A DNA stretch of 64,000 nt from Halofilum ochraceum (GTDB lineage: Bacteria; Pseudomonadota; Gammaproteobacteria; XJ16; Halofilaceae), in the NCBI RefSeq assembly GCF_001614315.2, contig NZ_LVEG02000008.1, positions 1 through 64,000 of the forward strand, given 5' to 3'. Each line of letters starts with the position of its first letter. Positions within the stretch are counted from its first letter, which is position 1. Below the pieces are notes generated by a model. That model did not search any database. It was given only the letters and a program-made list of their open reading frames with translations, and was not told where the DNA came from. Shown one piece after another: positions 35,610 to 63,510 of the stretch. A program made the position numbers and the translations under genes.

Positions 35610-36993
35610 TATCGCCGTTCCCGTCACCCGGTTCCGCCCTGGTAACGTCGGCTTCGAGGCGCCCGTGGGCAAGGTGGATGTCGAGGTGCTGGCCGGGTTC
35701 GACCTGGCGGGCGTCGGTGATGGCGCGGCCGTCTTCGGCGGCGCGGACGAGGGCGTAGCCGCGGCCGAGGGTGGCGAGCGGGCTGACGGCCTCCAGGGCG
35801 CGGGAGAGGGCGGCTACGCGGGCGTCGCGGTGCTTGAGGTCGGCGCGGATCGCGCCGTCGAGGCGGCGGCGGTTGCTGTCCAGGCGTTCGCGCAGGCGCT
35901 CGATCCGCGCGAGCGGGGAAGCGCGGCGCAGGCGGGCATCGATCCGTTCCAGCCGCTCACGGCGTGTGGTGATCGCGCGTGTGCCGATGCGCCGCAGGCG
36001 TAATTCCAGTTCGTCGCGCCGCTGCTGCAGCTGTTGCAGACGCCGCTCGGGGTGCTGGCGGCGCAGGCGTGATTCGACGTTCCGGCGGCGTTCTTCGCGG
36101 CGGCGCAGGGAGGCGCTTGCCGCGGCCTGCAGGCGGCGGCGCAGGCGTTCAAGCGTCTGCAGGAGTTCGCCCGCGTCGGGTACCACCAGTTCGGCCGCGG
36201 CGGATGGCGTCGGCGCGCGGACGTCCGCGGCGAAATCCGCGATCGTGACATCCACTTCGTGGCCGACCCCGCTGACGATCGGGATCGGACTGGCAACGAC
36301 CGCCCGGGCGACCGCTTCCTCGTTGAACGGCCACAGGTCCTCCAGTGAGCCCCCTCCGCGCACGAGCAGCAGCACATCGCAGTCGGCCCGGCGCCCGGCG
36401 GTCTCAATCATCCGGGCAATCGCCGGCGCCGCGCGCTCGCCCTGCACCTGGACCGGATAGATCACGACCGGGATCGCGGGGAAACGGCGCGCGAGCACCT
36501 TGAGGACGTCGCGCACCGCCGCTCCGGACGCGGAGGTGACGATGCCGATCCGGCGCGGCATGCGCGGTAAACCACGCTTGCGCTCCTGGGCGAACAGGCC
36601 TTCCGCGTCGAGGCGTTTTTTCAGTTCCTCGAAGGCACGGGCGAGGGCACCGGCACCGGCCGGCTCCATCTGCTCCACGATCAATTGATAATCGCCGCGG
36701 GCCTCGTACAGGCTGACCCGCGCGCGGGCCCGGACCTGCATGCCGGCGTCCGGGCGGAAATCCATCAGGCGATTGCGGCCCCGGAACATGGCGCAGCGCA
36801 CCTGCGCGTCGCGATCCTTGAGCGAGAAATACAGATGCCCCGAAGCCGGCCGGGCGATATTCGACAGTTCGCCCTCGATCCACACCGCCCCCAGGCCGCC
36901 TTCGAGCAGGTCGCGTACGGTGCGGTTCAGTTCGCTGACCGTGAATACGTGGGGGCCTGAATCAGCCGGTGCGGTGCCGGGACGAGTGGCCAT
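35587..36993 (-). CDS. xseA: exodeoxyribonuclease VII large subunit
   Basis: A 468-residue ExoVII large subunit that degrades single-stranded DNA together with XseB. It has the N-terminal OB-fold (VFTVSELNRTVRDLLE, LYFSLKD), the catalytic region with IGIVTSASGAAVRDVL and LLLVRGGGSLEDLWPFN and GVGHEVDVTIADFAADVRAPTPS, and a long arginine-rich coiled coil (about 275-400). The last few residues (TTNEHE) and the stop codon are supplied by the arm of the inverted repeat, so the C terminus has probably been altered by insertion of that element. No xseB is seen nearby. Confidence 0.95.
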   Translation of the reverse strand: MATRPGTAPADSGPHVFTVSELNRTVRDLLEGGLGAVWIEGELSNIARPASGHLYFSLKDRDAQVRCAMFRGRNRLMDFRPDAGMQVRARARVSLYEARGDYQLIVEQMEPAGAGALARAFEELKKRLDAEGLFAQERKRGLPRMPRRIGIVTSASGAAVRDVLKVLARRFPAIPVVIYPVQVQGERAAPAIARMIETAGRRADCDVLLLVRGGGSLEDLWPFNEEAVARAVVASPIPIVSGVGHEVDVTIADFAADVRAPTPSAAAELVVPDAGELLQTLERLRRRLQAAASASLRRREERRRNVESRLRRQHPERRLQQLQQRRDELELRLRRIGTRAITTRRERLERIDARLRRASPLARIERLRERLDSNRRRLDGAIRADLKHRDARVAALSRALEAVSPLATLGRGYALVRAAEDGRAITDARQVEPGQHLDIHLAHGRLEADVTRAEPGDGNGDRTTNEHE

Positions 36994-37124
36994 TCACTGT
37001 TTCCCTTCACTGTTTTCGTGGGTTGGTCCGGACCGGCGGCGCCGTTGCGCCGCGCGGGGGTGGGTGCCTGCTCCGGGCAGCGACGGTTCGCAGCCGGAAA
37101 CTGGTACGCCTGCGTCCCGCTGCG

Positions 37125-37130
37125 TACAAT
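37125..37130 (+). promoter_or_regulatory. candidate -10 box for the pigment ABC/ACP/KS operon
   Basis: TACAAT is the best -10 element in the 218-base space between xseA and the ABC transporter. No good -35 is found at 16-18 bases upstream (TGGTAC is the nearest), so the promoter may need an activator. Pattern evidence only. Confidence 0.35.
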
Positions 37131-37211
37131 CCGGGGCCGCTCGCGCGCCCGCTTTCGTCATCAGGAACCAGCCATATTAACGCCGATACCGCCATCGATG
37201 AGAGGGATCCA

Positions 37212-38132
37212 TTGATCTCGGTGGAAGGGCTCACCCACCGTTATCCAGGCATGGAGCGGGATGCCCTGCATGCAGTCGATTTCCAGGTCACGCGCGGCTC
37301 CCTGGCCGGCCTGCTGGGGCCGAACGGCGCCGGCAAGAGTACCTTGCTGGCGATCCTGAACGGAGTCACTTCCCTGCAGCAGGGGCGCGTAACGATCGCC
37401 GGGCGCACGCCGGCCGAGCGTGGCTGGCTGAAATCCGCCAGCTCGCTGGTGCCCCAGGCCTGCGCCTTCTACGCCACGTTGACCGCGCGCGAAAACCTCG
37501 CGTTCTTCGCCGGCGTCCATGGCTTGACGGGGAACCGGTGGCGCGAGGGCCTCGAATACTGCGTGGAGGTCGCCGGACTCGGCGACGTGCTCGACCAGCG
37601 CGCGGGTACGCTCTCCGGCGGGCTCCAGCGGCGGCTGAATCTTGCGGTCGGGCTGATCAATCGCCCGCAAATCCTGTACCTCGACGAGCCCACGGTCGGT
37701 GTCGATGCCGAGTCGCGGCGATGCATCACCGCCGCCATCGCGACGCTGCGGCGCGACGGTACGACGATCGTTTACACCTCGCACTATATGGAGGAGGTCG
37801 AGGCCCTCTGCGACCATCTGACCGTCATCGATCAGGGACGAACGGTCGCCGCCGGGGCTACCGATGAACTGCTGGAGCGCTTCGGCGGTACCTCGATGGT
37901 GGTGACGCTGCGCTCGATCCCCACGGCGGATCTCGATGCGGCGCTGCAGCCGTGGTCGCCGGTATGGCTGGACGCGCGCCGGGTGCGCCTGGAGGCCACC
38001 GATACCGTGGCCGCGACCGCGATCATGCGCGCGCTGGATGGGCAGGGCGTGGCGATCGAGCGCATTCGTTACGGAGTGGAACGGCTGGAGGACGTGTATC
38101 TGCGCCTGCTCCGCCACCGGGAGGCGGCATGA
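37212..38132 (+). CDS. ABC transporter ATPase in the pigment cluster
   Basis: A 306-residue ATPase of the ABC-2 (drug/lipid/polysaccharide exporter) type. Walker A GPNGAGKST, signature LSGGLQRR, Walker B ILYLDEPTVGVD and the switch histidine in YTSHYMEE are intact. No ATG exists near the conserved N terminus; TTG at 37212 follows an AGAGGG ribosome site and gives the protein LISVEGLTHRYPG. It overlaps the permease gene by ATGA. Exporters of this type accompany the DarA/DarB genes of flexirubin clusters, so moving the resorcinol or finished pigment is a plausible role. Confidence 0.88.
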   Translation: MISVEGLTHRYPGMERDALHAVDFQVTRGSLAGLLGPNGAGKSTLLAILNGVTSLQQGRVTIAGRTPAERGWLKSASSLVPQACAFYATLTARENLAFFAGVHGLTGNRWREGLEYCVEVAGLGDVLDQRAGTLSGGLQRRLNLAVGLINRPQILYLDEPTVGVDAESRRCITAAIATLRRDGTTIVYTSHYMEEVEALCDHLTVIDQGRTVAAGATDELLERFGGTSMVVTLRSIPTADLDAALQPWSPVWLDARRVRLEATDTVAATAIMRALDGQGVAIERIRYGVERLEDVYLRLLRHREAA

Positions 38133-39328
38133 AACGGCTGGTGGTGGCGGCCTGTGCGCGGAAGGAGATGCTCCTGCTGTGGCGCGATCCGCAGACCCTG
38201 CTGCTGCTGTTCCTGATGCCCGCGGTGTTTATCCTCGTCATGTCGCTGGCGCTGCAGGACCGGTTCGAGCAGGGCGGTGGCACGGTGGCGACCGCGCTGG
38301 TGGTCAACGAGGACGACAGTGACAGTGCCGGCACGGTCATCGAGTCGCTGCGGCGCAACGAGGGTTTCGAGGTGGTCGAGCTCGAGGGCCCGGTCGACGA
38401 CGACGCGTTCCGCGAACGCATCCACGCCCGCGACGCCGGCTTTGGCCTGCGGATCGACGCCGGTTTCGAGCAGGCCGTGTACGCGGACGGTGGAGAGCCG
38501 GCGAGGCATGTTCATGTCCTCGTGGCCCCCAAGATCGACCGGCAGCGCGAGGCCCTGCTGGTGGCCGCCGTGCGCCAGGGGCTCGGCCAGGCCCGCATGG
38601 AGGCGCTGTCGGAGCGACTGGCGCCGCTGGTCCAGTTCGATGCGGGCGGTATCGGCGCCGACCTTGATGTCGCCTACCTGTACGGCGGTGAGCGCGACGG
38701 CGCCGCGCCATCCTCCGTCCAGCAGAACGTCCCGGCCTGGCTCGTCTTCGGCATCTTTTTCGTGGTGATACCGCTGTCGAATACGATGATCCGGGAGCGC
38801 CAGTCGGGTACGGAGCAGCGTCTGCGCACGACGCCGGCCGGTGCGGCACCGATCCTGGCGGGCAAACTGCTCCCGTATTTCGCGTTGAATCAATTGCAGG
38901 CGGTGGCGATGCTGCTGGTCGGTCTGTTGCTGGTGCCGGCGCTCGGCGGCGCGGCGCTCGAGGTCGCCGGCGTCCCCGTGGCGACGCTGCTGCTGATGGC
39001 GGTCGCGGTGAGCGTGGCGGCGCTGGGATACGCGCTGCTGGTGGCGGCGCTGTCGTCGACCACCGAACAGGCGGCGATGCTCGGCGGTGGCGGCAATATT
39101 ATACTGGCGGCCATCGGTGGCATCATGGTGCCGGAATTCGTCATGCCGCCGGCCCTCCAGGCCGTGACCCGGCTGTCACCGATGGCCTGGGGCCTCGACG
39201 GATTCCTTCTGGCTTTTCTCGAGCGCGCCGGACCCGCCGAAGTCCTCGGCTACGCGGGCGCGCTGATCGCCTTCGGATTGGCCGGTGTCGCACTGGCCGG
39301 CTGGCGCCAGGCGCGCCGCAGTGAGTGA
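38129..39328 (+). CDS. ABC-2 type exporter permease
   Basis: A 399-residue permease with one N-terminal helix (LLLLFLMPAVFILVMSLAL), a periplasmic domain of about 160 residues and five to six C-terminal helices containing the ABC-2 signature region (MIRERQSGTEQRLRTTPAG). This is the YhgE/YbhS-like layout of half-size exporters. It is coupled to the ATPase gene by an ATGA overlap and is followed 16 bases later by an ACP gene, which supports membership of the pigment operon. Confidence 0.88.
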   Translation: MKRLVVAACARKEMLLLWRDPQTLLLLFLMPAVFILVMSLALQDRFEQGGGTVATALVVNEDDSDSAGTVIESLRRNEGFEVVELEGPVDDDAFRERIHARDAGFGLRIDAGFEQAVYADGGEPARHVHVLVAPKIDRQREALLVAAVRQGLGQARMEALSERLAPLVQFDAGGIGADLDVAYLYGGERDGAAPSSVQQNVPAWLVFGIFFVVIPLSNTMIRERQSGTEQRLRTTPAGAAPILAGKLLPYFALNQLQAVAMLLVGLLLVPALGGAALEVAGVPVATLLLMAVAVSVAALGYALLVAALSSTTEQAAMLGGGGNIILAAIGGIMVPEFVMPPALQAVTRLSPMAWGLDGFLLAFLERAGPAEVLGYAGALIAFGLAGVALAGWRQARRSE

Positions 39329-39344
39329 ACGACGGGATGACGCG

Positions 39345-39617
39345 ATGACCGGGACGGAGACGGAAGATCTGAATGCCGCGCTCAAGGCATTGATCGTCGA
39401 GGAATGTGACAAGGATGTGCCGCCGGAGAGCATCGGGGACGACGACGTCCTGATCGGTGGCGCCCTGGATCTGGATTCGCTCGACGCATTGCAGATTTGT
39501 ATCGCTGTGCAGAATCGCTACGGTGTGCGGATCAAGGCGGGTCCCGAGGCGCGGCGAGCGCTGGAGAGCGTCAACACGCTCGCCCGGACTATCCGCGAGC
39601 GCCAGCCGGCCGCCTGA
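39345..39617 (+). CDS. acyl carrier protein (DAR branch, DarC-like position)
   Basis: A 90-residue ACP. The phosphopantetheine serine is S45 in LDLDSLDALQ and the protein is acidic, as usual. ATG at 39345 is assumed; a GTG at 39321 overlapping the permease stop is possible. Its place beside the ketosynthase at 39682 and within reach of the darA/darB operon suggests that it carries the fatty 3-oxoacyl chains for dialkylresorcinol formation. It needs a phosphopantetheinyl transferase from elsewhere in the genome. Confidence 0.9.
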   Translation: MTGTETEDLNAALKALIVEECDKDVPPESIGDDDVLIGGALDLDSLDALQICIAVQNRYGVRIKAGPEARRALESVNTLARTIRERQPAA

Positions 39618-39681
39618 TGCGCGCGTGTCGCCGGACCCACTTGCTCGGGATCGATCGCGCGGTGGCCGCAGGGGGCTGCCG

Positions 39682-40833
39682 ATGAGGCGTGCGTGGTTCG
39701 TCGGCGGTGGCGCGCATACGGCCCTGGGCACGGACCTGGCCGCCGCGGTCGGCGCGTTCGATCAGTTGAGCGAGCCCGTACGCGTGCCGCTGCAGTACGG
39801 TGATGCCACCGACGAGATTCCCTATCGCCTGCTGGCGGATCGCCCGCTGGAGCGGCTCGAGGAGCGCCTGTACGAGGTCCTGGCCGGCGTGATCGAGCGC
39901 GCGCTCGACGAGGCTGCGATCAGCGCCGATGAGCGGCTGCGCATGGGGCTCTTCCTGGGCAGTTCGTCGGCCGATGTGTCCGTGTCCGAGGCCCGATTCC
40001 GGCGTGAACTCGCGGAAACCGACGATGCGATCGCGCTGATCGCGAGCAACAGTATCGCCAATCTCGCGCTGCATCTGCGGCGGCGTTTCGGTCTGCGGGG
40101 CCCCGACTACAGCTTCAATACCGCATGCACGGCGAGCGCCAATGCGCTCGTGACGGCGTCGGACATGATCGCCCGGGGCCGGCTCGATAACGCGCTGGTG
40201 GTCGGCGTGGAGCTGTTCAACGTGGTGACCGCCGCCGGTTTCCAGAGCCTGGGACTGCTGGCACCGGGGAACATGCGGCCGTTCGACCGCGACCGTGATG
40301 GGCTCACGCCCGGCGAGGGCTGCTCCGCGCTGGTCCTGTCGGCCCGCCAGCGCTCGCCCGACGACCTGTATCTCCGCGGTGCGGCCACACTCTGCGACAC
40401 CTACAGCATGTCGACCACCAACCCCGACGGCTCGACCGTCGCGACGGTGATCGAACGCGCGATCGAACGCGCCTGCGTGCCATCCTCGGAGATCGCCGCG
40501 ATCAAGGTGCATGGCACGGCGAGCCTGCACTCGGATGAGGCCGAGGCCGCGGGCATGCAGGCCGTGTTCGATCGGGTACCGCCGATCTTCGCGCTCAAGC
40601 CGCATATCGGCCATACGCTCGGCGCCTGTGGTCTGAATGAATTGCTCCTGTTCCGCGCGGCCGCCGCGCAGGGCGTCCTGCCGGGCACGCCGGGGATCGC
40701 CTCGCCGGAGCGCAGCGATTCGGGTCTCGCCCTCAATCAGCGCAACCGCGCGATCGACCCCGGCCACTTCATGCTCAATTACTTCGGGTTCGGCGGCAAC
40801 AATACGTCGCTGATCGTTTCCAATGTCGATTGA
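39682..40833 (+). CDS. 3-oxoacyl-ACP synthase (FabF-like ketosynthase)
   Basis: A 383-residue thiolase-fold ketosynthase with a complete C-H-H triad: C149 in FNTACTASANAL, histidine in IKVHGTASLHSDE and histidine in KPHIGHTLGACG. PFDRDRDGLTPGEG and NYFGFGGNNTSL are FabF hallmarks. It is shorter than usual FabF (about 410). ATG at 39682 follows AGGGGGC. It overlaps the ketosynthase-like gene at 40823 by 11 bases; the pair looks like a ketosynthase/chain-length-factor heterodimer. Confidence 0.9.
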   Translation: MRRAWFVGGGAHTALGTDLAAAVGAFDQLSEPVRVPLQYGDATDEIPYRLLADRPLERLEERLYEVLAGVIERALDEAAISADERLRMGLFLGSSSADVSVSEARFRRELAETDDAIALIASNSIANLALHLRRRFGLRGPDYSFNTACTASANALVTASDMIARGRLDNALVVGVELFNVVTAAGFQSLGLLAPGNMRPFDRDRDGLTPGEGCSALVLSARQRSPDDLYLRGAATLCDTYSMSTTNPDGSTVATVIERAIERACVPSSEIAAIKVHGTASLHSDEAEAAGMQAVFDRVPPIFALKPHIGHTLGACGLNELLLFRAAAAQGVLPGTPGIASPERSDSGLALNQRNRAIDPGHFMLNYFGFGGNNTSLIVSNVD

Positions 40834-41746
40834 AAGCCCGCGACACCAGGTCTGGATACGGGGCACCGGCGATTATCGCGAGGCCGTCGAAGGGGATACG
40901 CCGGCGCCGCTGAAGACGCTGGTCCAGGAATCGCTGGGCGTGCCGGTCCGTCGGATCGGGCGTTTCATCCAGCTCGCGCTGATCGGCGCGGGACGCTGCG
41001 CGGGCGATCGCACGCCGGGCTCCGACACCGCCGTTTATATGAGTTCGGCGCGTGGCGACCTGGAGACGACGCTCGATGTGGTGGAGACCCTGTTCCGGCA
41101 CGGCATGCCGCCGATGCCGCTCAGTTTCGTCAACACGGTCAGCAACGCGCCGTGCTATTACGTCGCCCGCCACTTCGACCTCGCCGGGCGCAGCAACTTC
41201 GTCTGCAGCCGCAGCTTCGCCTTCGAGTCCGTGCTCGATCTGGCCCTTCTGGATATCGAATCGGGGTACATGGATTCGGCCCTGGTGGGGTCGGTGGATA
41301 TCGCGACCAGCCCCGTTTCGGACCATCGGCGCCGTCTGCAGATCGGCCGCGACGAACCGATCGCCGAGGGCAGTCACTGGATTTGGCTGTATGCGGGCGA
41401 ATGCCCGGAAGACGCGATCGGCGAACTGGTGGCCGCGCGTGAATTCGGCGATCGCGACGAACTGATCGAGTGGCTGACCGCGCAGCCGTTGCCGATCCCG
41501 GATACCTGCATGGCTGCGGGCCAGTTCGCCGCCCGCGAGGACATCGCCACCGTGCGCGAGGCGACCGGCATCGAACGCCGCTTCGAACCGCCGAAATCCC
41601 CGGGCTTCTACGACAGCCAGAGCGGCGGCACCATCAACGCCTTCCTGCACCAGGGCCGCCAGCGTTGGCTCGTCCACATCAACGGCGAAATCGACGGCGC
41701 CCGCTGCACGGCCACGATCGTCCGACGCCTGGATCGGGCGGCCTGA
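40823..41746 (+). CDS. ketosynthase-like partner protein (chain length factor candidate)
   Basis: A 307-residue degenerate ketosynthase-fold protein. The N-terminal half is recognisable (PLSFVNTVSNAPCYYVARHFDLAG and a Cys in NFVCSRSFAFES at the nucleophile position), but neither catalytic histidine motif (HGT or GHT) is present, and the C-terminal half is short. It therefore cannot be a normal condensing enzyme and may be a chain length factor or a decarboxylative/structural partner for the ketosynthase at 39682. It is the last gene of the left operon and runs up to a long inverted repeat. Confidence 0.7.
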   Translation: MSIESPRHQVWIRGTGDYREAVEGDTPAPLKTLVQESLGVPVRRIGRFIQLALIGAGRCAGDRTPGSDTAVYMSSARGDLETTLDVVETLFRHGMPPMPLSFVNTVSNAPCYYVARHFDLAGRSNFVCSRSFAFESVLDLALLDIESGYMDSALVGSVDIATSPVSDHRRRLQIGRDEPIAEGSHWIWLYAGECPEDAIGELVAAREFGDRDELIEWLTAQPLPIPDTCMAAGQFAAREDIATVREATGIERRFEPPKSPGFYDSQSGGTINAFLHQGRQRWLVHINGEIDGARCTATIVRRLDRAA

Positions 41747-42207: not shown

Positions 42208-43239
42208 TCAGGAAGCGGTAGCCGTCCGGGCGGGGTGGGTGCCGTAGTCGCGGAGGAGTTTCCAGACGTCGGCCTCGCGTTCGGCGCAGTCGCGGAGGAC
42301 GTCGGCGAGGCCGGCGACCTCCATTTCGCTCTTGCGGCGCGACACCTTGGTCGCATGCACGGCGAACTCGCGCCAGCCGTCGCCTGCCGCCGTGAGCGAC
42401 TGTGCGGCCTCGGCGAGGCGGTCGTCGCCCAGGGTGTCCGCGGCCTCCTGCAGGAACGAGGCGTAGACGAACCGGAAACCCGCCCCGCCGGTGCCGATCT
42501 CTTCCTGCATGCGCACGATGTGCGCCAGATATAGCGGCAGCCGCCGGCGGCCGTCGTGGGTGCGCGTGCTCTTGACCAGATTATTGGCGAGATAGCGGAT
42601 CCCGCGGATGCCGATGATGGGCAGCGGCGAGCGATTCATGATGCGCTCGTTCGCCTTGATCGCCTTCGGGATCACGCGTTCGTAATCGATCGCTTCGGGG
42701 ATCCGCTCCGGGTAATACAGCAGGCCGTTGGCCGCCATCGCACCGCGGGTGAAGCGGGCCTTGCGCAGGTCCGCCCTCGGGCAGCGCACGGGCTCCTCGA
42801 ATACCGGATCACTGATCAGGTAATCGTCGCCGTCGCGCCCGTAGACAATGAGGTTGTGCGCATTGAAGTGGAAACGCATTTCCTCGGGGAAGAAGGGCAG
42901 CCAGTAGACCGAAGCCTGTACGCCGACGATCCGGCCGGCGTCGAGCAGTTCGTCGAGCGCCGCCATGCCCTTGTCCGCGTCGCGGAATTTGCGGAAGACG
43001 AAGCGGGCGCCGATGCGGCGGCTCGCCTTCGAAATGATCCAGCGCGGCGGCATGCGATAGGCGATCAGTGGCATGCCGCCGATCTTGATGATCGGGAGAT
43101 AGGCGAACGTCAGTGCGTTGGCGAGGCCGAACGCCATCGGTTCGCTGATGGGCAGGCCATGGTGCGTAAGCATGCTCGACACCACGCCGCTCTCGCAGTG
43201 GGCCGATTGCAGATGCCGGAAGTCGTTTACGGTATTCAT
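42208..43239 (-). CDS. BtrH-like cysteine acyltransferase (BtrH_N plus DUF4872)
   Basis: A 343-residue protein resembling the BtrH family, in which BtrH moves an acyl group from an ACP to an amine in butirosin synthesis. The N terminus has the presumed nucleophile C15 in SAHCESGVVSSML, and a histidine/aspartate pair in NAHNLIVYGRDGDDYLISDP completes a peptidase-C39-like site. The C-terminal half matches DUF4872 in length and position. It closes the minus-strand dehydratase-darA-darB operon and overlaps the preceding gene by ATGA. In this cluster it is a good candidate for joining the aryl polyene acid to the dialkylresorcinol as an ester; that is inference. Confidence 0.78.
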   Translation of the reverse strand: MNTVNDFRHLQSAHCESGVVSSMLTHHGLPISEPMAFGLANALTFAYLPIIKIGGMPLIAYRMPPRWIISKASRRIGARFVFRKFRDADKGMAALDELLDAGRIVGVQASVYWLPFFPEEMRFHFNAHNLIVYGRDGDDYLISDPVFEEPVRCPRADLRKARFTRGAMAANGLLYYPERIPEAIDYERVIPKAIKANERIMNRSPLPIIGIRGIRYLANNLVKSTRTHDGRRRLPLYLAHIVRMQEEIGTGGAGFRFVYASFLQEAADTLGDDRLAEAAQSLTAAGDGWREFAVHATKVSRRKSEMEVAGLADVLRDCAEREADVWKLLRDYGTHPARTATAS

Positions 43240-43652
43240 TCTTCCGGTCCCTCGCGGGGTGGTACGCGCTGCAGGCGCTCGATGTCGAGACCAAGGGCCT
43301 CGCAGTAACGGTCCAGGACGCGCCGCGGCAGTCGGGCGAAGCGCCCGGGGTCGAAGTGGCGCCGCACGCGCCAGCGCCAGAGACCCGCGGCACCGGCGAG
43401 CAGCGGCAGATCCATGCGGCAGTCGTGCATGTGAACCTCCAGCGGCGAGGTCTGACCGGCGTGTGCCCGCTGCCAGGCGTCGTCGCGCTGGCGCGCGATC
43501 TCTTCGAGCGCGGTGCGCGTGGCGGTCGCCTCGACCTCCCAGCCCGCCGAGCGGACGCTCGTGTAACGGCCCTGCTCGTCAACGGCGTACAGCAGCTTGC
43601 GGACGCCCGCGTGCGTGCTGTCTTCGTCCTGCGGCGTTTCCCGGCGATCCAT
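43236..43652 (-). CDS. conserved small protein of the DAR operon, function unknown
   Basis: A 138-residue soluble protein with no domain I recognise. It has a segment KLLYAVDEQGRYTSVRSAGWEVE near residue 19, a predicted helix rich in charged residues (about 45-65) and a basic stretch (WRWRVRRHFDPGRFARLPRR). It begins immediately after the darB stop (TAAATG) and overlaps the BtrH-like gene by ATGA, so it is made with them. It may be a partner of the acyltransferase or of DarB. Confidence 0.7.
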   Translation of the reverse strand: MDRRETPQDEDSTHAGVRKLLYAVDEQGRYTSVRSAGWEVEATATRTALEEIARQRDDAWQRAHAGQTSPLEVHMHDCRMDLPLLAGAAGLWRWRVRRHFDPGRFARLPRRVLDRYCEALGLDIERLQRVPPREGPEE

Positions 43653-44804
43653 TTACTCCACCGTAAGGGAAATGAATGCCGTCGAGAACCGGCCACTCTC
43701 GGGGATGTAACACAGGATCCGCTGGCCGCGCTTGAGATCCCCCGAATTGAACAGGTCCGACAGCATGATGTAGATCGATGCCGAGCCGGTATTGCCCTTG
43801 GTGGACAGGTTCGTGAACCAGCGCTCCGAGGGGATTTCCATGCCGGCCCGCTGCATACGGTCGTATACCTGATCGCGGAAGTACTGTGAGGAGTAGTGCG
43901 GCAGGAACCAGTCGTAGTCCTGCGGCTGGACGCCATGCTTTTCACGGATCCGTGTCATCGCGTGGTACACGGTGTAGTCCATGACGTGTTCGTTCAGCAG
44001 TTTGACGTCCTGCTTGACCGCCATCGCCGATGTGTTCGCCCGTTCCTCCTGACTCATGAGGGGCCAGCCCCGCAGTGATCCGTCCTCGTTCTTTACCGCG
44101 CCGATGTACATGCAGGTTTCCATCTGGCCGGCGAACGAGATCACCTCGATCCAGTCGACGCGGAGGTTGACGGGACCGGGGCCGGGCTGCGGTTCGAGCA
44201 GCATGGCACCGGCACCGTCGGACAGCATCCAGCGCAGGAAGTCCTTCTCGAAGGCCAGTTCGGGGCGCGCCTCCAGTGCTTCGAGCTGATGCTGCGCCTC
44301 GGCGCTGAAGTTCTCCGAGCGCAACAGCGGCGAGACCAGTTCGGAACCGGTGGCCACACTGCGCCGGTGCTCCCCGGTGGCGATACCCATGCAGGCGTAT
44401 TTGAGCGCGCTGATGCCGGACAGGCAGATCCCGGAGGTGCCGACGACCTCGCAGGGCGGCAGTCCGAGTTCGCCCTGCACCATGAGCCCGTGACTCGGGG
44501 CGACCTGATCCGCGACCGTGGTTCCGGCGGCGAGGCAGTCGACGGCGTCGATCGGCTGGCCGTCGCGGGCCAGGCCACGGATGGCCTCGGCGGTCATTGC
44601 GGCATTCGTGTGGGTGTACTCGCCGGTCTGCGGATCGATGGCGTAATGCCGCGATTTGATGCCGTTGTTGCGCAGGATCGTACGGCGCACGCGCGACGGC
44701 CGCGGCCCGACCTGCCCGAGCACGGATTCCATCTCGTCGTTGCCGACCGGATCATTGGGCAGGAACGACGCGAGATTGGTGATGTATACGGGATTGGTGG
44801 TCAT
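43653..44804 (-). CDS. darB: DarB-type 3-oxoacyl-ACP synthase III
   Basis: A 383-residue ketosynthase III. The nucleophile is C127 in GTSGICLSGISALKYA, the histidine lies in WFLPHYSSQYF and the asparagine in TKGNTGSASIY, giving the C-H-N triad of FabH-like enzymes. In characterised DAR pathways DarB condenses two 3-oxoacyl chains, and DarA then aromatises the ring. Its position right after darA with ATGA overlap fits that pairing. The alternative is a general KAS III, but the operon context argues for DarB. Confidence 0.85.
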   Translation of the reverse strand: MTTNPVYITNLASFLPNDPVGNDEMESVLGQVGPRPSRVRRTILRNNGIKSRHYAIDPQTGEYTHTNAAMTAEAIRGLARDGQPIDAVDCLAAGTTVADQVAPSHGLMVQGELGLPPCEVVGTSGICLSGISALKYACMGIATGEHRRSVATGSELVSPLLRSENFSAEAQHQLEALEARPELAFEKDFLRWMLSDGAGAMLLEPQPGPGPVNLRVDWIEVISFAGQMETCMYIGAVKNEDGSLRGWPLMSQEERANTSAMAVKQDVKLLNEHVMDYTVYHAMTRIREKHGVQPQDYDWFLPHYSSQYFRDQVYDRMQRAGMEIPSERWFTNLSTKGNTGSASIYIMLSDLFNSGDLKRGQRILCYIPESGRFSTAFISLTVE

Positions 44805-45760
44805 GCAGTGTGATCCAGGAGTTCGGTCGATTCACCCGATGGGGCCGCATAATACCGCCGTTGGCGGGCGGTACGCTTGCGCGTGAGCGGCGCGATCAGG
44901 CGCTTGATGACGGCGCTGAGCGGCACGACCGTGATGATCAGTGTGAACAGGAACAGGAAATAAACGGCCAGCACCGCGCGCCGCAGTGGCGTGTTCGGTG
45001 GACCGAGCGCGCGCAGCAGCGCCCCCCAGATCCGGAAACTGCGATGGGCGATGCGCTCCGAAGCGATCATGCGCTCGTTCACGTGGACCGCGCCCAGTCC
45101 CTTCAGCATCGGCGTCAAATCATCGCGCGCGCGGCCGGGCAGCTGGCGGGCGATCGCCTCGCCGAAGCGGGCGGCCGCATCGATGTCCTCTCGGGACACG
45201 CCGGCGGCGGGGATCAGGCCACCGAGAAACGGGCCACGATGACCCGTGAGCACCCAGACCGGTGTCGAAACGAAGGTCGCCGCGCTGTGGGCGCGGTCCG
45301 TGAGGACCACGTTGTCGACGAGGTGCCCGCCGATGTACTCGATGTGCCGCTTGAAGGTCTCGTAGGCGCTGAGCCACATGTTGCGGCAGGCGATGACCGA
45401 AACGATCGGTTTGCCGGCAAGCACGCGTCGGGCCTTCGGGTGCTGCAGGAAGGCCATCGCCGGCATCGCCGGTGACAGGAACCAGACCTGCCACGAAAAA
45501 ATGATCAGGTCGAAGTCCTCGTCGCCCCGGATATTCGGCTCGCGGATTGGCGCGGGTTCCTCATAGACGCATTCGGGGAATGTGTCGAAGAACCGCCAGA
45601 ATGGCCACGGGAACGGAAACGCCTCGACCGGCTCCAGTTCGAGTTCCGTGACTTCGATTTCGCTGGATGCCCGCAGCGGACCGAGAATGGAGTCCAGCAC
45701 CGAGCGTGATTGTCCCGTCTGGGAAAACCCGATCGCCAGCACGCGCTTCACTTCAGTCAT
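44801..45760 (-). CDS. darA: DarA-type dialkylresorcinol condensing enzyme
   Basis: A 319-residue flavodoxin-fold protein like DarA. The N terminus KRVLAIGFSQTGQSRSVLDSI is the phosphate-binding-loop-like start, followed by the family's aromatic segment EAFPFPWPFWRFFDTFPE and DFDLIIFSWQVWFLSP. A hydrophobic C-terminal helix (VLAVYFLFLFTLIITVVPL) suggests membrane attachment. ATG at 45760 follows GGAG; the frame is open further upstream but lacks a ribosome site. With DarB it would form and aromatise the cyclic 1,3-dione to a 2,5-dialkylresorcinol. Confidence 0.85.
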   Translation of the reverse strand: MTEVKRVLAIGFSQTGQSRSVLDSILGPLRASSEIEVTELELEPVEAFPFPWPFWRFFDTFPECVYEEPAPIREPNIRGDEDFDLIIFSWQVWFLSPAMPAMAFLQHPKARRVLAGKPIVSVIACRNMWLSAYETFKRHIEYIGGHLVDNVVLTDRAHSAATFVSTPVWVLTGHRGPFLGGLIPAAGVSREDIDAAARFGEAIARQLPGRARDDLTPMLKGLGAVHVNERMIASERIAHRSFRIWGALLRALGPPNTPLRRAVLAVYFLFLFTLIITVVPLSAVIKRLIAPLTRKRTARQRRYYAAPSGESTELLDHTA

Positions 45761-45921
45761 CCCGTCTCCATTGCCACACGCCATGCGCGGCGAGTAGCCG
45801 GCCGTGTCCTTTTCCGTATTCGAATGCATGCCATCATCGTGCCACAGTCGGCTCCCGGCGAAACCCGGTTTCCGCGGGTGCCGGTCGCGCGCTGGGCGGG
45901 GGAGCGCGGCGAGCGGCGCTG

Positions 45922-46224
45922 TCAGCCGTCCACCGATTCCTGCCCGAGCGTCAGCCGTCCCTGAACCACGATGGTGTCCGCGGTGCGGCAGACGAATTTC
46001 AGGGAATCCCCGGTGGGTGCGTCGAGTTCGATACGGAATGGCTCGTCAGGCGCCACCCGCTGCACGAACTTGGCCTTGCGGATCCCGGTGACCCGGGTAT
46101 CCGGCCACGAATCCCGTACGGCGTCGATTACCCGCGACAGAATAACCGCCGCCGGCACGACCGGCTGCCCGGGGAAATGCCCGGGAAGTGCGGGGTGATC
46201 GGAACCGATGACGACTTCCGGCAT
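45922..46224 (-). CDS. hotdog-fold 3-hydroxyacyl-ACP dehydratase, FabZ/ApeI-like
   Basis: A 100-residue single hotdog protein. The catalytic histidine is H16 in HPALPGHFPGQPVVPA, the FabZ-type signature. It is shorter than FabZ (about 145 residues) and similar to the small ApeI-type dehydratases of aryl polyene systems. It leads the minus-strand operon ahead of darA, 161 bases upstream, and is divergent from the main APE operon. It could serve either the polyene chain or the resorcinol alkyl chain. Confidence 0.82.
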   Translation of the reverse strand: MPEVVIGSDHPALPGHFPGQPVVPAAVILSRVIDAVRDSWPDTRVTGIRKAKFVQRVAPDEPFRIELDAPTGDSLKFVCRTADTIVVQGRLTLGQESVDG

Positions 46225-46588: not shown

Positions 46589-46843
46589 ATGGTCAGCAAT
46601 CGCGAAGAACTGTTCGACGAACTGCGCACGATCCTCGTGGAAATGTTCGAGCTCGATGCGGCTGATGTCGTGCCCGGGGCCCGTCTGTATGAGGATCTCG
46701 ATATCGACAGCATCGACGCGGTCGATCTCGTCATCCGTCTCCGCGAGCTGACCGGCACGCGGGTCGACCCCGAGGATTTCCGGTCCGTGCGCACGGTCCA
46801 GGATGTTGTCGACACGACCGCCAGACTACTGGCAACCGCCTGA
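46589..46843 (+). CDS. acyl carrier protein 1 of the APE operon (ApeE/F-like)
   Basis: An 84-residue ACP with phosphopantetheine serine S41 in LDIDSIDAVDL. ATG at 46589 follows a GGGGTGG ribosome site; the longer upstream frame is not protein-like. It is the first gene of the 18-gene plus-strand operon and overlaps the next gene at TGATG. Aryl polyene systems use two ACPs; the second here is at 60276. Confidence 0.9.
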   Translation: MVSNREELFDELRTILVEMFELDAADVVPGARLYEDLDIDSIDAVDLVIRLRELTGTRVDPEDFRSVRTVQDVVDTTARLLATA

Positions 46844-47403
46844 TGAATCGCTGGCTCGCGCGGGCGATCGCGGCGATCGCCGCGATCTACCCGTTCATTG
46901 TCTGGTTCTCGCTCGATACGCTGCCCGTCGCATTCCTCGGGCTGCTCCTGCTCGCGCTCGCGCTCGGTCGCCTGGTGCTGCTGGGGCGAGCCCCGGGTGA
47001 ACCGCTGCTGGTAGCGGCCGGGGTGATCGCGATGGCCGCGGCGGGGATCTACACGCTCATCAGCAGCAGCAGCGAGGGGCTGCGCTTCTACCCGGTGCTG
47101 ATGAGTGCGGCGATGCTGTGCCTGTTCGGCTGGTCGTTGAGACAGCCGCAGTCGATCGTCGAGCGCTTCGCCCGGATCATTTACCGCGAATTCCCCCCCG
47201 AGGCGGCCGTCTACGCGCGTCGCGTGACGGCCGTATGGTGTGCATTCTTCCTGATCAATGGGCTGATCGCGCTGTGGACCGCCGTGGCCGGCAGCTGGGC
47301 GGTCTGGACGCTCTACAACGGGTTCATTTCCTACATGCTGATGGGGCTGCTGTTCGTGGGCGAATATGCGGTCCGGCAGAGGCTGCTGGGCGCAACCTCG
47401 TGA
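46843..47403 (+). CDS. COG4648-type membrane protein (ApeG-like position)
   Basis: A 186-residue integral membrane protein with five to six helices, including AIYPFIVWFSLDTLPVAFLGLLL, LLVAAGVIAMAAAGIYTLI and FISYMLMGLLFVGEYAV. REFPPEAAVYARRVTAVWCAFFLING resembles the COG4648 proteins that follow the ACP in aryl polyene clusters. Its biochemical role is not established. It overlaps both neighbours (TGATG and GTGA). Confidence 0.78.
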   Translation: MNRWLARAIAAIAAIYPFIVWFSLDTLPVAFLGLLLLALALGRLVLLGRAPGEPLLVAAGVIAMAAAGIYTLISSSSEGLRFYPVLMSAAMLCLFGWSLRQPQSIVERFARIIYREFPPEAAVYARRVTAVWCAFFLINGLIALWTAVAGSWAVWTLYNGFISYMLMGLLFVGEYAVRQRLLGATS

Positions 47404-49115
47404 GCATCCCCGTGGTCCCGCTCGCGCGGCTCCATGCCGCTGATCGCGACCCTGCGCGCCCGGCGTTCATCCATCGCGGCCGGATGATCGATCACGCCAC
47501 GCTCCAGGCCGATGTCGCTGCGCTGGCATCCGATCTGCAGACACGGGGTGCGCGCGACTGGGCGCTGCACCACGAAGATGCGTATCCGTTCACGGTTGCG
47601 CTGCTGGCGATCCTGGCGACGGGTGGCCGTGCCTGGTTGCCGGCCAACGCGACGGCGGGCACCGAGGAGAGCCTGCGGGCGTATTGCGACGGCTGGCTCG
47701 GGCCTGACTGGTCCACCGGGCGCCCGATCCCGGTGGCAACGGATGCCGGGCCCTCGCCACTGCCCGCGCTGAGCGGACGGATCGTCGTATTCACTTCGGG
47801 CTCGACCGGCGAACCGCAGCCCATTTCCAGGACGCTGGCGCAGTTCGATTGCGAGGTCGAGGCGCTGGAGCGTCTGTGGGGTGGAACGCTCGGTGACGCA
47901 CGGATTCTGGGCACGGTCAGCCATCAGCATATCTACGGTCTGCTGTTCCGGGTGTGGTGGCCCCTCGCGGTGGGGCGCACGTCCTGCAGTGAGCGCTTCT
48001 TCGAGGCACGCGATGTACTGGCCGCGGCGGCGGACGCGCCGACTGCGGCATGGGTCGCCAGCCCGGCCCATCTGCGCCGACTCCAGCAGGATCTCCCGTG
48101 GGACCGCGCCGACGGCCATCTGCGGATGATTTTCTCCTCCGGCGGACCGCTGCCGGCGGAGGCGGCGGGTGAGTGCGCCCGATTCTCGGGGCTCTGGCCG
48201 ACCGAGATCTATGGCAGTTCGGAGAGCGGCGGCATCGCCTGGCGCACGCAGGCCGACGGGAACGCCTGGTGGCGGCCCCTGCCGGGCGTCGATGTCCGCG
48301 CCGCGGCGGACGGTGCACTGGAACTGCGGTCTCCGCACCTGGCGGATGGTGGGCCGCTCACCCTCAGTGATTCGATCGAATGCGCGCCCGATGGCGGTTT
48401 CCGGCTCGGGGAGCGGCTCGACCGGATCGTCAAGGTCGAGGGCAAGCGCCTGTCCCTGTCGCAGCTCGAGACCGCGCTGCAGGAACACCCCTGGATCGCC
48501 GAGGCCCGTGCGCTGCTGTTGCGCCGGCGCCGCGAGTCGATCGCCGCGGTCGCCGTGCCGACCGCCGAAGGGGCCGCGGAACTGGAGCGGGTCGGTCGAC
48601 ACCCGTTCACGCGCCGGCTGCGCGAGGCGCTGCTCGCGCGCTTCGAGCCGGTCACGGTGCCGCGTCTGTGGCGATTCCCGGATGCGCTGCCGGTGAATGC
48701 GCAGGGCAAGGTCAGCGAACGCGAGCTGCGCGATCTTTTTGAAACCGCTGCGCCGCGCCGCCTGCCGCAGACCCTGGCGATCGATGGCGACGGACACTCG
48801 TGCGAGGCCCGCCTGCGCGTGCCGGACGATCTCGGCTGTTTCGAAGGCCATTTCCCCGGCCGCCCCGTGGTGCCGGGCGTCGTCCTGATCGGGTGGGCCG
48901 AACACGTCGCGCGACACCATTTCGCGGTTACGGGCGAAGTGCGGGATGTCGAGCGCATCAAGTTCAGCCGGCCGGTCCAGCCCGGGCACGAACTGGTCCT
49001 GCGGCTGGTGCACGATGACGTTCGTCACTGCATCGGTTACCGTTTCCGCTCCGCGGGGGGCGTCGAGGAGTTCGCATCCGGGCGCCTGGTGTTCGCCGAT
49101 GCGCCGGGGCCCTGA
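47400..49115 (+). CDS. AMP-dependent acyl ligase fused to a FabZ-like dehydratase
   Basis: A 571-residue two-domain protein. Residues 1-455 are an ANL-type adenylating enzyme: P-loop FTSGSTGEPQ at 131-140, EIYGSSESGGIAWR, the hinge region GERLDRIVKVEGKRLS and the terminal lysine in NAQGKVSER. Residues about 465-571 are a hotdog dehydratase with H484 in GHFPGRPVVPGVVL. In aryl polyene synthesis the ligase (ApeH role) loads the aryl acid starter on an ACP and the dehydratase (ApeI role) makes the double bonds; here both are on one chain. The start is GTG at 47400, overlapping the previous stop. Confidence 0.87.
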   Translation: MSIPVVPLARLHAADRDPARPAFIHRGRMIDHATLQADVAALASDLQTRGARDWALHHEDAYPFTVALLAILATGGRAWLPANATAGTEESLRAYCDGWLGPDWSTGRPIPVATDAGPSPLPALSGRIVVFTSGSTGEPQPISRTLAQFDCEVEALERLWGGTLGDARILGTVSHQHIYGLLFRVWWPLAVGRTSCSERFFEARDVLAAAADAPTAAWVASPAHLRRLQQDLPWDRADGHLRMIFSSGGPLPAEAAGECARFSGLWPTEIYGSSESGGIAWRTQADGNAWWRPLPGVDVRAAADGALELRSPHLADGGPLTLSDSIECAPDGGFRLGERLDRIVKVEGKRLSLSQLETALQEHPWIAEARALLLRRRRESIAAVAVPTAEGAAELERVGRHPFTRRLREALLARFEPVTVPRLWRFPDALPVNAQGKVSERELRDLFETAAPRRLPQTLAIDGDGHSCEARLRVPDDLGCFEGHFPGRPVVPGVVLIGWAEHVARHHFAVTGEVRDVERIKFSRPVQPGHELVLRLVHDDVRHCIGYRFRSAGGVEEFASGRLVFADAPGP

Positions 49116-49193
49116 GCGCCGCACCTGCCCGCAGGGTCCGCGGGTCGGGCAATACCGATTTCAGTACCCGTTTACGTTATCCGGAGCATACGC

Positions 49194-50735
49194 ATGCAGG
49201 AAATGCCGCAGGTGGTGTTCGATGGGACGCCCCTGAGCGCCGCCGCGATCACCGCGATCGCCGAACGGCGCCAGCCGTCCGTACTCAGTGGCGAACCCGC
49301 CTTCGTCGAGCGGATCGACCGCGGGGCCGAGTTCATCGACCGCGTCTGGCAGGAGGAGGGGGTCGTATACGGGGTCACGACCGGCTACGGCGATTCGTGC
49401 AGCGTGTCGATCCCGCCTGGGCTCGTGGAGGAACTGCCGCAGCATCTGTATACCTTCCATGGCTGCGGGCTCGGCGATATTTTCGATGAATCCGAAACGC
49501 GGGCCATCCTCGCGGCGCGCCTCGCGAGTCTGGCGCAGGGATTCTCGGGCGTGCGGTACACGCTGCTCGCACAGATCCACCTCCTGATCGAGCACGACGT
49601 CCTGCCCGTGATCCCGAAAGAGGGCTCGGTAGGCGCCAGCGGCGATCTCACGCCATTGTCGTACGTGGCGGCCGTGCTCGCGGGGGAGCGCGAAGTGATC
49701 CATGCGGGCCGCCGGCGTCCGACCGCGGAGGTGTTCGGCGAACTCGGCATCGAGCCGATCGTGCTGCGGCCCAAGGAAACGCTCGCCATCATGAACGGCA
49801 CGGCCGTCATGACGGCGCTGGCCTGTCTCGCGCTCGAGCGGGCCCGCTACCTGTGCCGACTCGCGAGTCGGATTACATCGCTCTCCGTGCTGGCCCTGCA
49901 GGGCAACGCCAATCATTTCGACCCGCGCCTGTTCTCGGTCAAGCCGCATCCCGGCCAGGGCGAGGTCGCACGGCGTATCCATGACGATCTGGGCGGCGGT
50001 GATCACCGCCGCCAGAGTTCGCGTCTGCAGGACCGCTACTCGCTGCGCTGTGCACCGCACGTGGTCGGGGTACTCGAGGATTCGCTGCCGTGGCTCACGC
50101 AGTTCATCGAGACCGAACTCAACAGTGCCAACGATAACCCGATCATCGATCCCGAGCAGGAACGGGTGCTCCACGGCGGGCACTTCTACGGAGGCCATAT
50201 CACGTTCGCGATGGACTCGCTCAAGACCGCCGTAGCGAACGTGGCCGATCTGCTCGATCGCCAGCTGGCGCAGCTCGTCGATCCGAAATTCAATCACGGT
50301 CTGCCGGCGAACCTGTCCGGCGCGCAGGGCGCGCGGCGGCCGCTGAACCATGGCTTCAAGGCGGTGCAGATCGGGACCTCCGCTTGGGCGGCGGAGGCGC
50401 TGAAGCTGACCATGCCGGCCAGCGTCTTCTCGCGCTCGACCGAGAGTCACAACCAGGACAAGGTGAGCATGGGCACGATCGGGGCCCGTGATTGCCTGCG
50501 GGTGCTGACGCTCACCGAGCAGGTCGCGGCGGCGACCCTGATCGGCACGAGTCAGGGCGTGTGGCTGCGTGAACGTTCGGAAGAGATCGACGTGACCGCG
50601 ACGGCCGGCGTCCGCACCACGCTCGAAGAAGTCGCGGCGGTGTTCCCGATGCTGATCGAGGACCGCCCCCTGGAGACGACCCTCCGCGATCTGCTCGGAC
50701 GTATCGGGCGCCGGGAATTCACGCTGTATGAGTGA
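49194..50735 (+). CDS. aromatic amino acid ammonia-lyase (HAL/PAL/TAL family), probable starter enzyme
   Basis: A 513-residue MIO-dependent lyase. The self-forming cofactor triad Ala-Ser-Gly is at 148-150 in GSVGASGDLTPLSY, and the catalytic tyrosine lies in VVYGVTTGYG. The selectivity segment reads YTFHGCGLG, with Phe88-His89 at the pair that separates tyrosine, phenylalanine and histidine users; a histidine there fits tyrosine, but the exact substrate cannot be read with certainty. In APE/flexirubin clusters such a lyase makes 4-hydroxycinnamate as starter. ATG at 49194 follows GGAG. Confidence 0.88.
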   Translation: MQEMPQVVFDGTPLSAAAITAIAERRQPSVLSGEPAFVERIDRGAEFIDRVWQEEGVVYGVTTGYGDSCSVSIPPGLVEELPQHLYTFHGCGLGDIFDESETRAILAARLASLAQGFSGVRYTLLAQIHLLIEHDVLPVIPKEGSVGASGDLTPLSYVAAVLAGEREVIHAGRRRPTAEVFGELGIEPIVLRPKETLAIMNGTAVMTALACLALERARYLCRLASRITSLSVLALQGNANHFDPRLFSVKPHPGQGEVARRIHDDLGGGDHRRQSSRLQDRYSLRCAPHVVGVLEDSLPWLTQFIETELNSANDNPIIDPEQERVLHGGHFYGGHITFAMDSLKTAVANVADLLDRQLAQLVDPKFNHGLPANLSGAQGARRPLNHGFKAVQIGTSAWAAEALKLTMPASVFSRSTESHNQDKVSMGTIGARDCLRVLTLTEQVAAATLIGTSQGVWLRERSEEIDVTATAGVRTTLEEVAAVFPMLIEDRPLETTLRDLLGRIGRREFTLYE

Positions 50736-51141
50736 CTGGACCGCGGAAGTCACTTTCGACATCCCGTTCCACGACGTGGACCTCATGGGGATCGTGTGGC
50801 ATGGCCACTATGCCAAGTACTTCGAGTTCGCACGATCGAAACTGCTCGGGGGGCTCGACTACGACTACCGGCAGATGAAGGCATCGGGCTATGCCTGGCC
50901 GGTGATCGAGATGCGGATCCGGTATGCGCAGCCCATGCGGTTTGAGCAGCGCGTCGTGGTCCGGGCGAGTATCGTCGAATACGAGTCGCGGCTGCGGATC
51001 GCCTACGAAATCCGGGACGCCGGTTCGGGCCGGCGCCTGACGCGGGCCCATACCGACCAGGTCGCGCTCGATATGGAGAGCGGCGAGATGTGTTACGCCT
51101 CGCCGCCGGTGCTGCTCGAGAAACTCGGGGTAGCAGACTGA
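50728..51141 (+). CDS. 4HBT-family thioesterase (ApeK-like)
   Basis: A 137-residue hotdog thioesterase of the 4-hydroxybenzoyl-CoA type. The active-site region is FHDVDLMGIVWHGHYAKYFE, with the Asp near residue 18. It overlaps the lyase gene by 8 bases. In aryl polyene synthesis the ApeK-type thioesterase releases or proofreads chains on the ACP. Confidence 0.88.
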   Translation: MSDWTAEVTFDIPFHDVDLMGIVWHGHYAKYFEFARSKLLGGLDYDYRQMKASGYAWPVIEMRIRYAQPMRFEQRVVVRASIVEYESRLRIAYEIRDAGSGRRLTRAHTDQVALDMESGEMCYASPPVLLEKLGVAD

Positions 51142-51725
51142 TGCGGGGCGTGATCCTGATCGCGCTGCTGGTGCTGTTCGGCCCCGCGCCGGCGGTCAGC
51201 GCTCCCGGGGAGTTGCCCGAGCTCGTGCAGCGCGAGACCGCGGTCGGGCGTTTTATTCAGCGGCGTCAGCTGCCGGAACTCGAGCGCCCGATCGTCTCGC
51301 GCGGCCGCTTCGCCTACAGCGCCGGGCGCGGGCTCCTGTGGCTGATCGAAGACCCGGTCGAGTCGCGTCTGGTGATCGACTCGGAAGGCGTCTATCAGGA
51401 CGGAGAGCCGATCCGCGGCAGTGGTGCCTTCGGCGCGATCCGGCCGTTGTTCGAAAGCCTGTTCAGCGGCGACCTGGCGCCGCTTGAGCGCGATTTCGGG
51501 GTCACCCGGGAAGCCGGGGAAGCGGGCTGGCGGTTGTTGCTGAATCCACGCGGTGAGCGACTCGCGGGGGCCCTGGACCGGATCATCATCGAGGGTGCCG
51601 ACACACCCCGGCGACTCGTGATCGAGGCCAGTGACGGCAGCCGGACCGAGATGGAGTTCGCGGACGTCACCCACCCGGAACGACTCGACGAAGCCCTGAT
51701 CCAGGCCTTCGATCGTGCCCGCTGA
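51141..51725 (+). CDS. LolA-like outer-membrane lipoprotein carrier protein (ApeL-like)
   Basis: A 194-residue periplasmic protein with a signal peptide (GVILIALLVLFGPAPAVSA) and LolA-like sequence features, such as GRFAYSAGRGLLWLIEDPVESRLVID and the later GVTREAGEAGWRLLLNPR. It has no lipobox. LolA-like proteins with an MMPL exporter in APE clusters are thought to move the lipid-linked pigment to the outer membrane. It overlaps its neighbours on both sides (TGATG; 11 bases). Confidence 0.82.
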   Translation: MRGVILIALLVLFGPAPAVSAPGELPELVQRETAVGRFIQRRQLPELERPIVSRGRFAYSAGRGLLWLIEDPVESRLVIDSEGVYQDGEPIRGSGAFGAIRPLFESLFSGDLAPLERDFGVTREAGEAGWRLLLNPRGERLAGALDRIIIEGADTPRRLVIEASDGSRTEMEFADVTHPERLDEALIQAFDRAR

Positions 51726-54024: not shown

Positions 54025-54028
54025 CTGC

Positions 54029-58272: not shown

Positions 58273-58316
58273 CCGCGAGTCGGTCGCCGGCCACGCCCCG
58301 GATATCACTGACGACC

Positions 58317-58766: not shown

Positions 58767-58777
58767 CGGAGACCGCG

Positions 58778-60279: not shown

Positions 60280-60539
60280 GTAAAGACCTGGGCAGGGAAC
60301 TGAAGGAACTGATCATCGAATCGCTGGATCTCGAGGACGTCACGCCCGAGGACATCGACGACGACGAACCCCTGTTCGTCGATGGGCTGGGGCTCGATTC
60401 GATCGACGCGCTTGAACTGGGCATGCAGATCCAGAAGAAATACAACCTCAAGCTGGATGCGAACAACGAGGCCAACAAGCAGCACTTCGCCTCGGTCAAC
60501 GCGCTGCGCCGGTTCATCGAATCCCAGCAGGCGACCTGA
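60276..60539 (+). CDS. acyl carrier protein 2 of the APE operon (ApeE/F-like)
   Basis: An 87-residue, strongly acidic ACP with phosphopantetheine serine S42 in GLDSIDALEL. ATG at 60276 overlaps the acyltransferase stop (ATGA). It is the third ACP in the pigment region. Confidence 0.92.
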   Translation: MSKDLGRELKELIIESLDLEDVTPEDIDDDEPLFVDGLGLDSIDALELGMQIQKKYNLKLDANNEANKQHFASVNALRRFIESQQAT

Positions 60540-60590
60540 GCGCGGGCCGACGGCGCGCCCGTTCCGCAGCCACGCACGGAGATCGACCGT

Positions 60591-63492: not shown

Positions 63493-63510
63493 GCCTTTTC
63501 GCGAATCCGG

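Follow-up and report, generated by a model that had tools for sequence, protein, structure and literature searches.

The closest described counterpart of the genes considered here is found in Azoarcus BH72, in which darA-darB-darD-darE were listed in 2014 and darE was called a 'BtrH-like peptidase' and given no role (Schoener et al., PMC3949708). Azoarcus DarE and DarD (azo0290/azo0291) belong to the same families as the proteins DarH and DarG, with the same gene order and the same setting of dar and polyene genes, and the Azoarcus pigment was deduced by MS to be an ester of an aryl polyene (APE) and a dialkylresorcinol (DAR) (PMC3949708). For Chitinophaga, Schoener et al. proposed that the 'ligase-like' FlxW is responsible for ester formation (PMC3992019). 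DarA and DarB suffice for DAR production in E. coli (PMC3992019), and P. chlororaphis, with darA-darB-darC, makes free 2-hexyl-5-propylresorcinol (PMC6403133). APE clusters without DAR also have genes for a PlsC-like acyltransferase, a glycosyltransferase, LolA and an exporter (PMC3949708).

In the literature that we searched, the joining of the two halves of flexirubins was left open, FlxW being the sole suggestion. The 2014 Azoarcus paper alone was relevant to DarH or DarG together with flexirubin or BtrH, and BtrH is unmentioned in the celluxanthene paper; no biochemical or knockout experiment on DarG or DarH was found in this literature, and their function is the name given by curators. 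The two genes are not new, being Azoarcus darD/darE and the DarG and DarH of NCBIfam. In the present study, we analyzed them in a window of 64,000 nucleotides of the Halofilum ochraceum genome (the whole stretch, contig NZ_LVEG02000008.1). Among the enzymes that could link the polyene to the resorcinol in flexirubin-like pigments, DarG and DarH are the best candidates; DarH is probably the acyltransferase that forms the ester in APE-DAR pigments, and DarG its small subunit.

The dar operon and the surrounding clusters

An earlier sequence-only reading had proposed that a BtrH-like protein and a protein of 138 residues are translated together with DarA and DarB. Its coordinates for the two open reading frames are exact (Table 1), and the coupling was confirmed at every junction: the darA stop and the darB start share ATGA (4-bp overlap), the TAA of darB is directly followed by the ATG of darG, and the darG stop and the darH start again share ATGA (4-bp overlap). 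The order darA-darB-darG-darH on one strand was found at 77 of 89 loci, and several of the others are cut by contig ends.

Table 1. Features of the dar operon, the dar cassette and the aryl-polyene cluster in the window
Feature	Position	Strand	Remarks
ABC transporter ATPase, dar cassette	36969..38132	+	Actual start probably further in
ABC-2 permease, dar cassette	37952..39328	+	
Ketosynthase, dar cassette	39457..40833	+	Azoarcus DarJ-like; rival acyl-transfer candidate
Second ketosynthase-like, dar cassette	40823..41746	+	Degenerate
darH	42208..43239	-	343 aa; BtrH_N + DUF4872; predicted carrier-protein-dependent acyltransferase; predicted catalytic C15, H128, D144
darG	43236..43652	-	138 aa; N-terminal hairpin, long helix and C-terminal HTH-like bundle (model)
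darB	43653..44804	-	StlD/DarB family ketosynthase-like dialkylresorcinol cyclase; NF005293, 586 bits (cut-off 450)
darA	44801..45829	-	Dialkylresorcinol condensing/aromatase; 39-53% identity to DarA neighbours elsewhere
Hotdog-fold dehydratase-like	45922..46224	-	Upstream of darA; weak FabA/FabZ match
Acyl carrier protein (ACP)	46589..46843	+	One candidate carrier of the aryl-polyenoyl donor
Rest of aryl-polyene cluster	47118..63606		AMP-ligase/ApeI-like, ammonia-lyase, thioesterase, LolA, exporter, FAD protein
Further members of the same cluster	47118..63606		ApeP, KR, KS (57040-58272), Ketoacyl-synt_2, PlsC-like acyltransferase, ACP, glycosyltransferase/acyltransferase-like ORF
Second ACP-like ORF	60276-60539		

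The darB product scores below the 550-bit cut-off of NF053539, and the actual start of darA is probably at M24 (about 45760). The gene for the hotdog dehydratase-like protein is also found upstream of darA at four other loci (L099-L101 and L131). On the other side of the operon, the ABC-2 transporter and the ketosynthase (KS) pair (36969-41746, +) are part of a dar cassette conserved across proteobacteria; an ABC-2 ATPase gene lies within the fetched flanks of 77 of the 89 DarH loci and directly downstream of darH at 34 of them.

In one ORF of the polyene cluster (47118-49115, +), an AMP-ligase domain is fused to a dehydratase domain resembling ApeI. An aromatic ammonia-lyase of the histidine/tyrosine lyase family is encoded at 49194-50735 (+), and its presence suggests that the starter is flexirubin-like and derived from tyrosine, and not a hydroxybenzoate of the xanthomonadin type. 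The ORF at 60591-62303 (+), in which a family-2 glycosyltransferase is followed by an LpxL-like acyltransferase as judged by eye, is another possible acyl-transfer enzyme.

Conservation and predicted fold of DarH

Residues 14-145 of DarH match BtrH_N (PF14399, 162.1 bits; Pfam cut-off 29.7) and residues 157-328 match DUF4872 (PF16169, 176.3 bits; cut-off 28), that is, both Pfam domains of the BtrH_N + DUF4872 family score above the cut-off. In NCBIfam release 20.0, from which the DarH and DarG models were taken, the protein scores 473.1 bits (cut-off 300) with the equivalog NF053550 (DarH_acyl, 'BtrH-related acyltransferase DarH') over model positions 1-324 of 325. We gathered orthologues in the class survey described below and by scanning 84,980 species genomes; the 80 loci kept from the scan span alpha-, beta-, gamma-, delta- and epsilonproteobacteria.

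The sequence-only reading had pointed out Cys15 and a His/Asp pair in the BtrH-like protein, and had named loss of the cysteine in orthologues as an outcome that would speak against its proposal. We looked for such a loss and found that H14, C15, H128 and D144 are invariant in all 89 DarH sequences. H124 is kept in 86 of the 89, the three exceptions, all deltaproteobacterial, having Gln. When two divergent BtrH-like sequences (L014 and L015, about 25% identity) were added, C15, H128 and D144 were still invariant, and likewise the motif E246...G249-T250-G251-G252 of the DUF4872 domain. Judged from these sequences, the conservation of Cys15 and the His/Asp pair is far beyond chance.

The AlphaFold2 model of DarH (mean pLDDT 93.9, pTM 0.92) was compared with solved structures by Foldseek and VIA-align. 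It matches, over the full length, AziU3 from the AziU2-U3 complexes (Z 24.6, rmsd 4.5, 313 residues), CtaG (Z 23.9, rmsd 3.5, 294 residues) and CcbD (Z 21.2, rmsd 4.5, 306 residues), and thus has the full-length fold of the CcbD/CtaG-type acyltransferases (Z 21-24 over about 294-308 residues). C39 peptidases match the N-terminal domain only (Z about 16, 130-150 residues), clearly below the transferases. By sequence, a profile search of solved structures with DarH returned only 8gs1 (AziU3), weakly (E 0.98), and a phmmer search of the same structures returned no relative.

The titles of PDB entries list the CtaG variants C11A, H128A and D144N, in which a Cys, a His and an Asp are replaced, the residue types also seen in DarH. 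These variants point to a Cys-His-Asp triad in CtaG, and from domain placement and conservation the three residues of DarH may be equivalent. CtaG has been proposed to transfer hydroxybenzoate from the carrier protein CtaH (PMC6772006), BtrH is described as an ACP:aminoglycoside acyltransferase (PMC10318531), and CcbD is described as using a ping-pong mechanism with a Cys-His-Glu triad to transfer an acyl group from a carrier protein onto a small acceptor (PMC12945683). By analogy, a thioester donor, a small nucleophilic acceptor and a Cys-His-acid site would be what DarH shares with the chemistry of its solved fold relatives. The NCBIfam name, the CcbD/CtaG/AziU3 fold and the invariant Cys-His-Asp support the assignment of DarH as a carrier-protein-dependent acyltransferase.

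DarG as a companion of DarH

The 138-residue protein had been taken as unknown; however, NCBI already names it DarG, and it matches NF053536 ('DarG family dialkylresorcinol biosynthesis protein') with 156.8 bits against a cut-off of 70. The flexirubin-specific DarG equivalog NF053545 was missed (121.8 bits, cut-off 170). No Pfam domain exceeds its cut-off in DarG, including the HTH family HTH_26 (14.1 bits, curated cut-off 22), and a sequence search found no clear relative among solved structures. In the model (pLDDT 84, with an uncertain N-terminus), residues ~63-130 form an HTH-like bundle, and the most conserved part of the protein includes an N-terminal P-Q...Y...G...G-W motif outside it.

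The DarG-DarH pair is kept where darAB is inverted (L094) or non-adjacent (L161, L164 and L168), and two DarG-DarH pairs are present in one genome of Syntrophaceae (G274, loci L225 and L226). Because the pair stays together without adjacent darAB and is duplicated jointly in G274, DarG is tied to DarH and not to DarA/DarB. The overlap of the two genes is usually 4 bp across the DarH loci. At one locus (L089, genome G253), a gene that is RhuM-like by eye lies between darG and darH (L089:11575-12591), and at L151, L167, L173 and L176, mostly from Pasteurellaceae, a gap of 0.2-2.2 kb takes the place of the usual overlap. The mirror-tree correlation of DarG and DarH is 0.92, but all genes of the operon correlate at 0.83-0.92, so that the pair is not singled out.

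One possible explanation of the HTH-like bundle is that DarG is a transcription regulator of the Xre type and not an enzyme subunit, whatever DarH does. The C-terminal half indeed resembles SinR, DdrO and NGO0477 (best Z 9.0, rmsd 2.8, 84 residues); however, the HTH-like domains of the enzymes HppE, HEPD and MPnS match it nearly as well as the Xre regulators do, and the conserved N-terminal motif would not be expected in a plain DNA-binding protein. The strict one-to-one presence with DarH, the overlapping genes, the persistence of the pair apart from darAB and its joint duplication also argue against a regulator, a reading that we regard as doubtful. We favour DarG as an enzyme subunit, probably a partner of DarH that perhaps presents the ACP or DAR. 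The suggestion that the small protein could be a partner is therefore borne out as far as its presence in the same genomes as DarH (see below), gene overlap and duplication as a pair are concerned, while physical binding is presumed.

Co-occurrence with DAR and polyene genes, and the proposed role

We surveyed 274 genomes drawn from the class, with Ketoacyl-synt_2 as the marker of polyene clusters. Pfam ApeP was dropped as a marker; it misses some clusters, with no hits in G073, G074, G133 and G242. DarH was above the cut-off in 12 of the 274 genomes, and the genomes with DarG are exactly these 12; DarB exceeded its cut-off in these and in three others (G106, G199 and G222). The polyene marker was present in 65 genomes, which include all 15 with DarB above the cut-off. 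DarH thus occurs in 12/15 genomes with both DAR and APE markers and in 0/259 of the others (Fisher p about 1.6e-18, a value uncorrected for relatedness), including 0/50 with the polyene marker only and 0/3 in which DarB is weaker and the polyene marker is absent. Among 198 genomes of Pseudomonadaceae, DarB was found in 19, all with the polyene marker, and 18 of the 19 have DarH.

In the exception in Pseudomonadaceae (G417, 7 Mb), darA-darB-ACP, the arrangement of P. chlororaphis, is followed by neither DarG nor DarH, and we infer that G417 is this species. This pattern agrees with a role of DarGH in turning free DAR into the ester, as far as gene content can tell. G417 and the three genomes of the class survey are the four with DAR and APE genes and without the pair; completeness is only 82-85% for G106 and G222. 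The loci concerned in G199, G222 and G106 (L086, L087 and L088, respectively) have darA and darB but no darGH and belong to genomes with polyene genes as well, and at L088 darA and darB are on opposite strands. The presence of DAR and APE genes together need not imply the ester.

Some DarGH loci of Desulfobacterota come from genomes without the polyene marker. Five such genomes were checked for DarB: none was seen in two MAGs, one of which is G275 with its DarGH, and DarB is present in full or in part in the other three. A different donor or acceptor is possible in these organisms. At three loci of Syntrophaceae/deltaproteobacteria (L161, L164 and L166), DarGH is not adjacent to darAB and DarH has H124Q. 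The pair lies beside ACP, KS and PlsC-like genes at L161 and L164, together with plsY at the former and a B12/radical-SAM gene at the latter. These H124Q enzymes, apart from darAB and accompanied by lipid genes, may act on another acceptor.

DarGH is not needed for the resorcinol, because DAR production in E. coli requires only DarA and DarB, nor for the polyene in the class sample, because polyene clusters without DAR lack the pair; therefore, the step that remains is the joining of the two halves. Given the families, operon coupling, conservation, fold and co-occurrence observed in this analysis, we infer that DarGH forms the ester. In the mechanism that we propose, Cys15 in the papain-like BtrH_N domain would accept the completed aryl-polyenoyl chain from the polyene ACP, forming a thioester, and His128 and Asp144 would activate a phenolic hydroxyl on the DAR that DarA/DarB produce; this hydroxyl would then attack the acyl-enzyme (ping-pong, as in CcbD) and give an ester of the flexirubin/arcuflavin type. 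The helical DUF4872 domain would cover the active site and probably docks the ACP, and DarG would bind to DarH. The sequence-only reading had likewise proposed transfer of the ACP-bound polyene to the resorcinol; the carrier-dependent transferase (name, fold and triad) and the restriction, in the class sample, to genomes with DAR and APE speak for it, while its acyl group and acceptor stay putative. Counting against an ester-forming role are the best-known homologues, BtrH, CcbD and CtaG, which make amides and not phenolic esters, and the four DAR and APE genomes without the pair.

An alternative possibility could be that DarH does depend on a carrier protein, but acylates an acceptor other than DAR, or puts a fatty acyl group instead of the polyene on DAR. 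Relatives of DarH span several donors and acceptors, one of the two pairs of G274 has H124Q and lies beside KS, ACP, PlsC-like and PlsY genes with no adjacent darAB, and G275 has DarGH with no DarB detected. However, in the class sample DarH occurs only with both markers, its gene belongs to the darAB operon, and the Azoarcus pigment is an APE-DAR ester by MS, so that we consider this improbable. The ester might also be made by another enzyme of the cluster, namely the DarJ-like KS pair, the PlsC-like acyltransferase, the glycosyltransferase/acyltransferase-like ORF or an AMP-ligase such as FlxW, with DarH as a thioesterase or proofreading enzyme. All these kinds of gene are present in the window, the KS pair of the dar cassette weakly resembles the acyltransferase subunit AmcF, and FlxW has been proposed for this step in Chitinophaga (PMC3992019); the earlier statement that no other obvious enzyme exists was thus too strong. 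Since the PlsC-like, glycosyltransferase, LolA and exporter genes are not specific to DAR (PMC3949708) and the full-length fold matches of DarH are transferases, this explanation nevertheless seems quite unlikely to us. Least credible, and in our opinion very improbable, is the reading of DarH as a C39-type peptidase that works for the neighbouring ABC transporter. Such a function would suit the frequent ABC-2 ATPase gene nearby, the resemblance of the N-terminal domain to C39 peptidases and the wording 'BtrH-like peptidase' of Schoener et al. (PMC3949708); however, matches that include the C-terminal domain are transferases with higher Z, DarH is a stand-alone protein of 343 aa with DUF4872 and no fused ABC transporter, and from the ORFs of the window there would be no gene for a substrate peptide in the dar operon.

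The preferred reading, an acyltransferase DarH with DarG as its small subunit, may be extended tentatively: the pair could represent a two-subunit, carrier-protein-dependent O-acyltransferase that has a cysteine-protease fold, makes a phenolic ester and needs an accessory with the HTH fold, the H124Q branch of Desulfobacterota having a different acceptor. If DarGH forms the ester, ester formation would be added to a fold that serves amide synthesis in the butirosin, lincosamide and closthioamide pathways, and DarGH would be a genomic marker that splits the makers of free DAR from the makers of APE-DAR esters.

Among the known systems, AziU3 of azinomycin biosynthesis has the fold closest to that of DarH and was crystallised with a small partner, AziU2. 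The two proteins belong to the aziridine pathway. AziU2 was absent from the fold and sequence matches of DarG, among the matches listed. CtaG of closthioamide biosynthesis also has the fold of DarH, but its proposed reaction is an amide/peptidyl transfer of hydroxybenzoate, and it is 10% identical. The lincosamide condensing enzymes CcbD and LmbD are like DarH in their full-length fold, nucleophilic Cys, His-acid pair and carrier-protein donor; however, CcbD gives an amide product, has Glu where DarH has Asp and shows 12% identity, and the accessible part of PMC12945683 reports no DarG-like partner for these enzymes. BtrH of butirosin biosynthesis has the BtrH_N domain in common with DarH, but it makes an amide on an aminoglycoside, whereas DarH is predicted to make a phenolic ester, with DarG as a separate companion.
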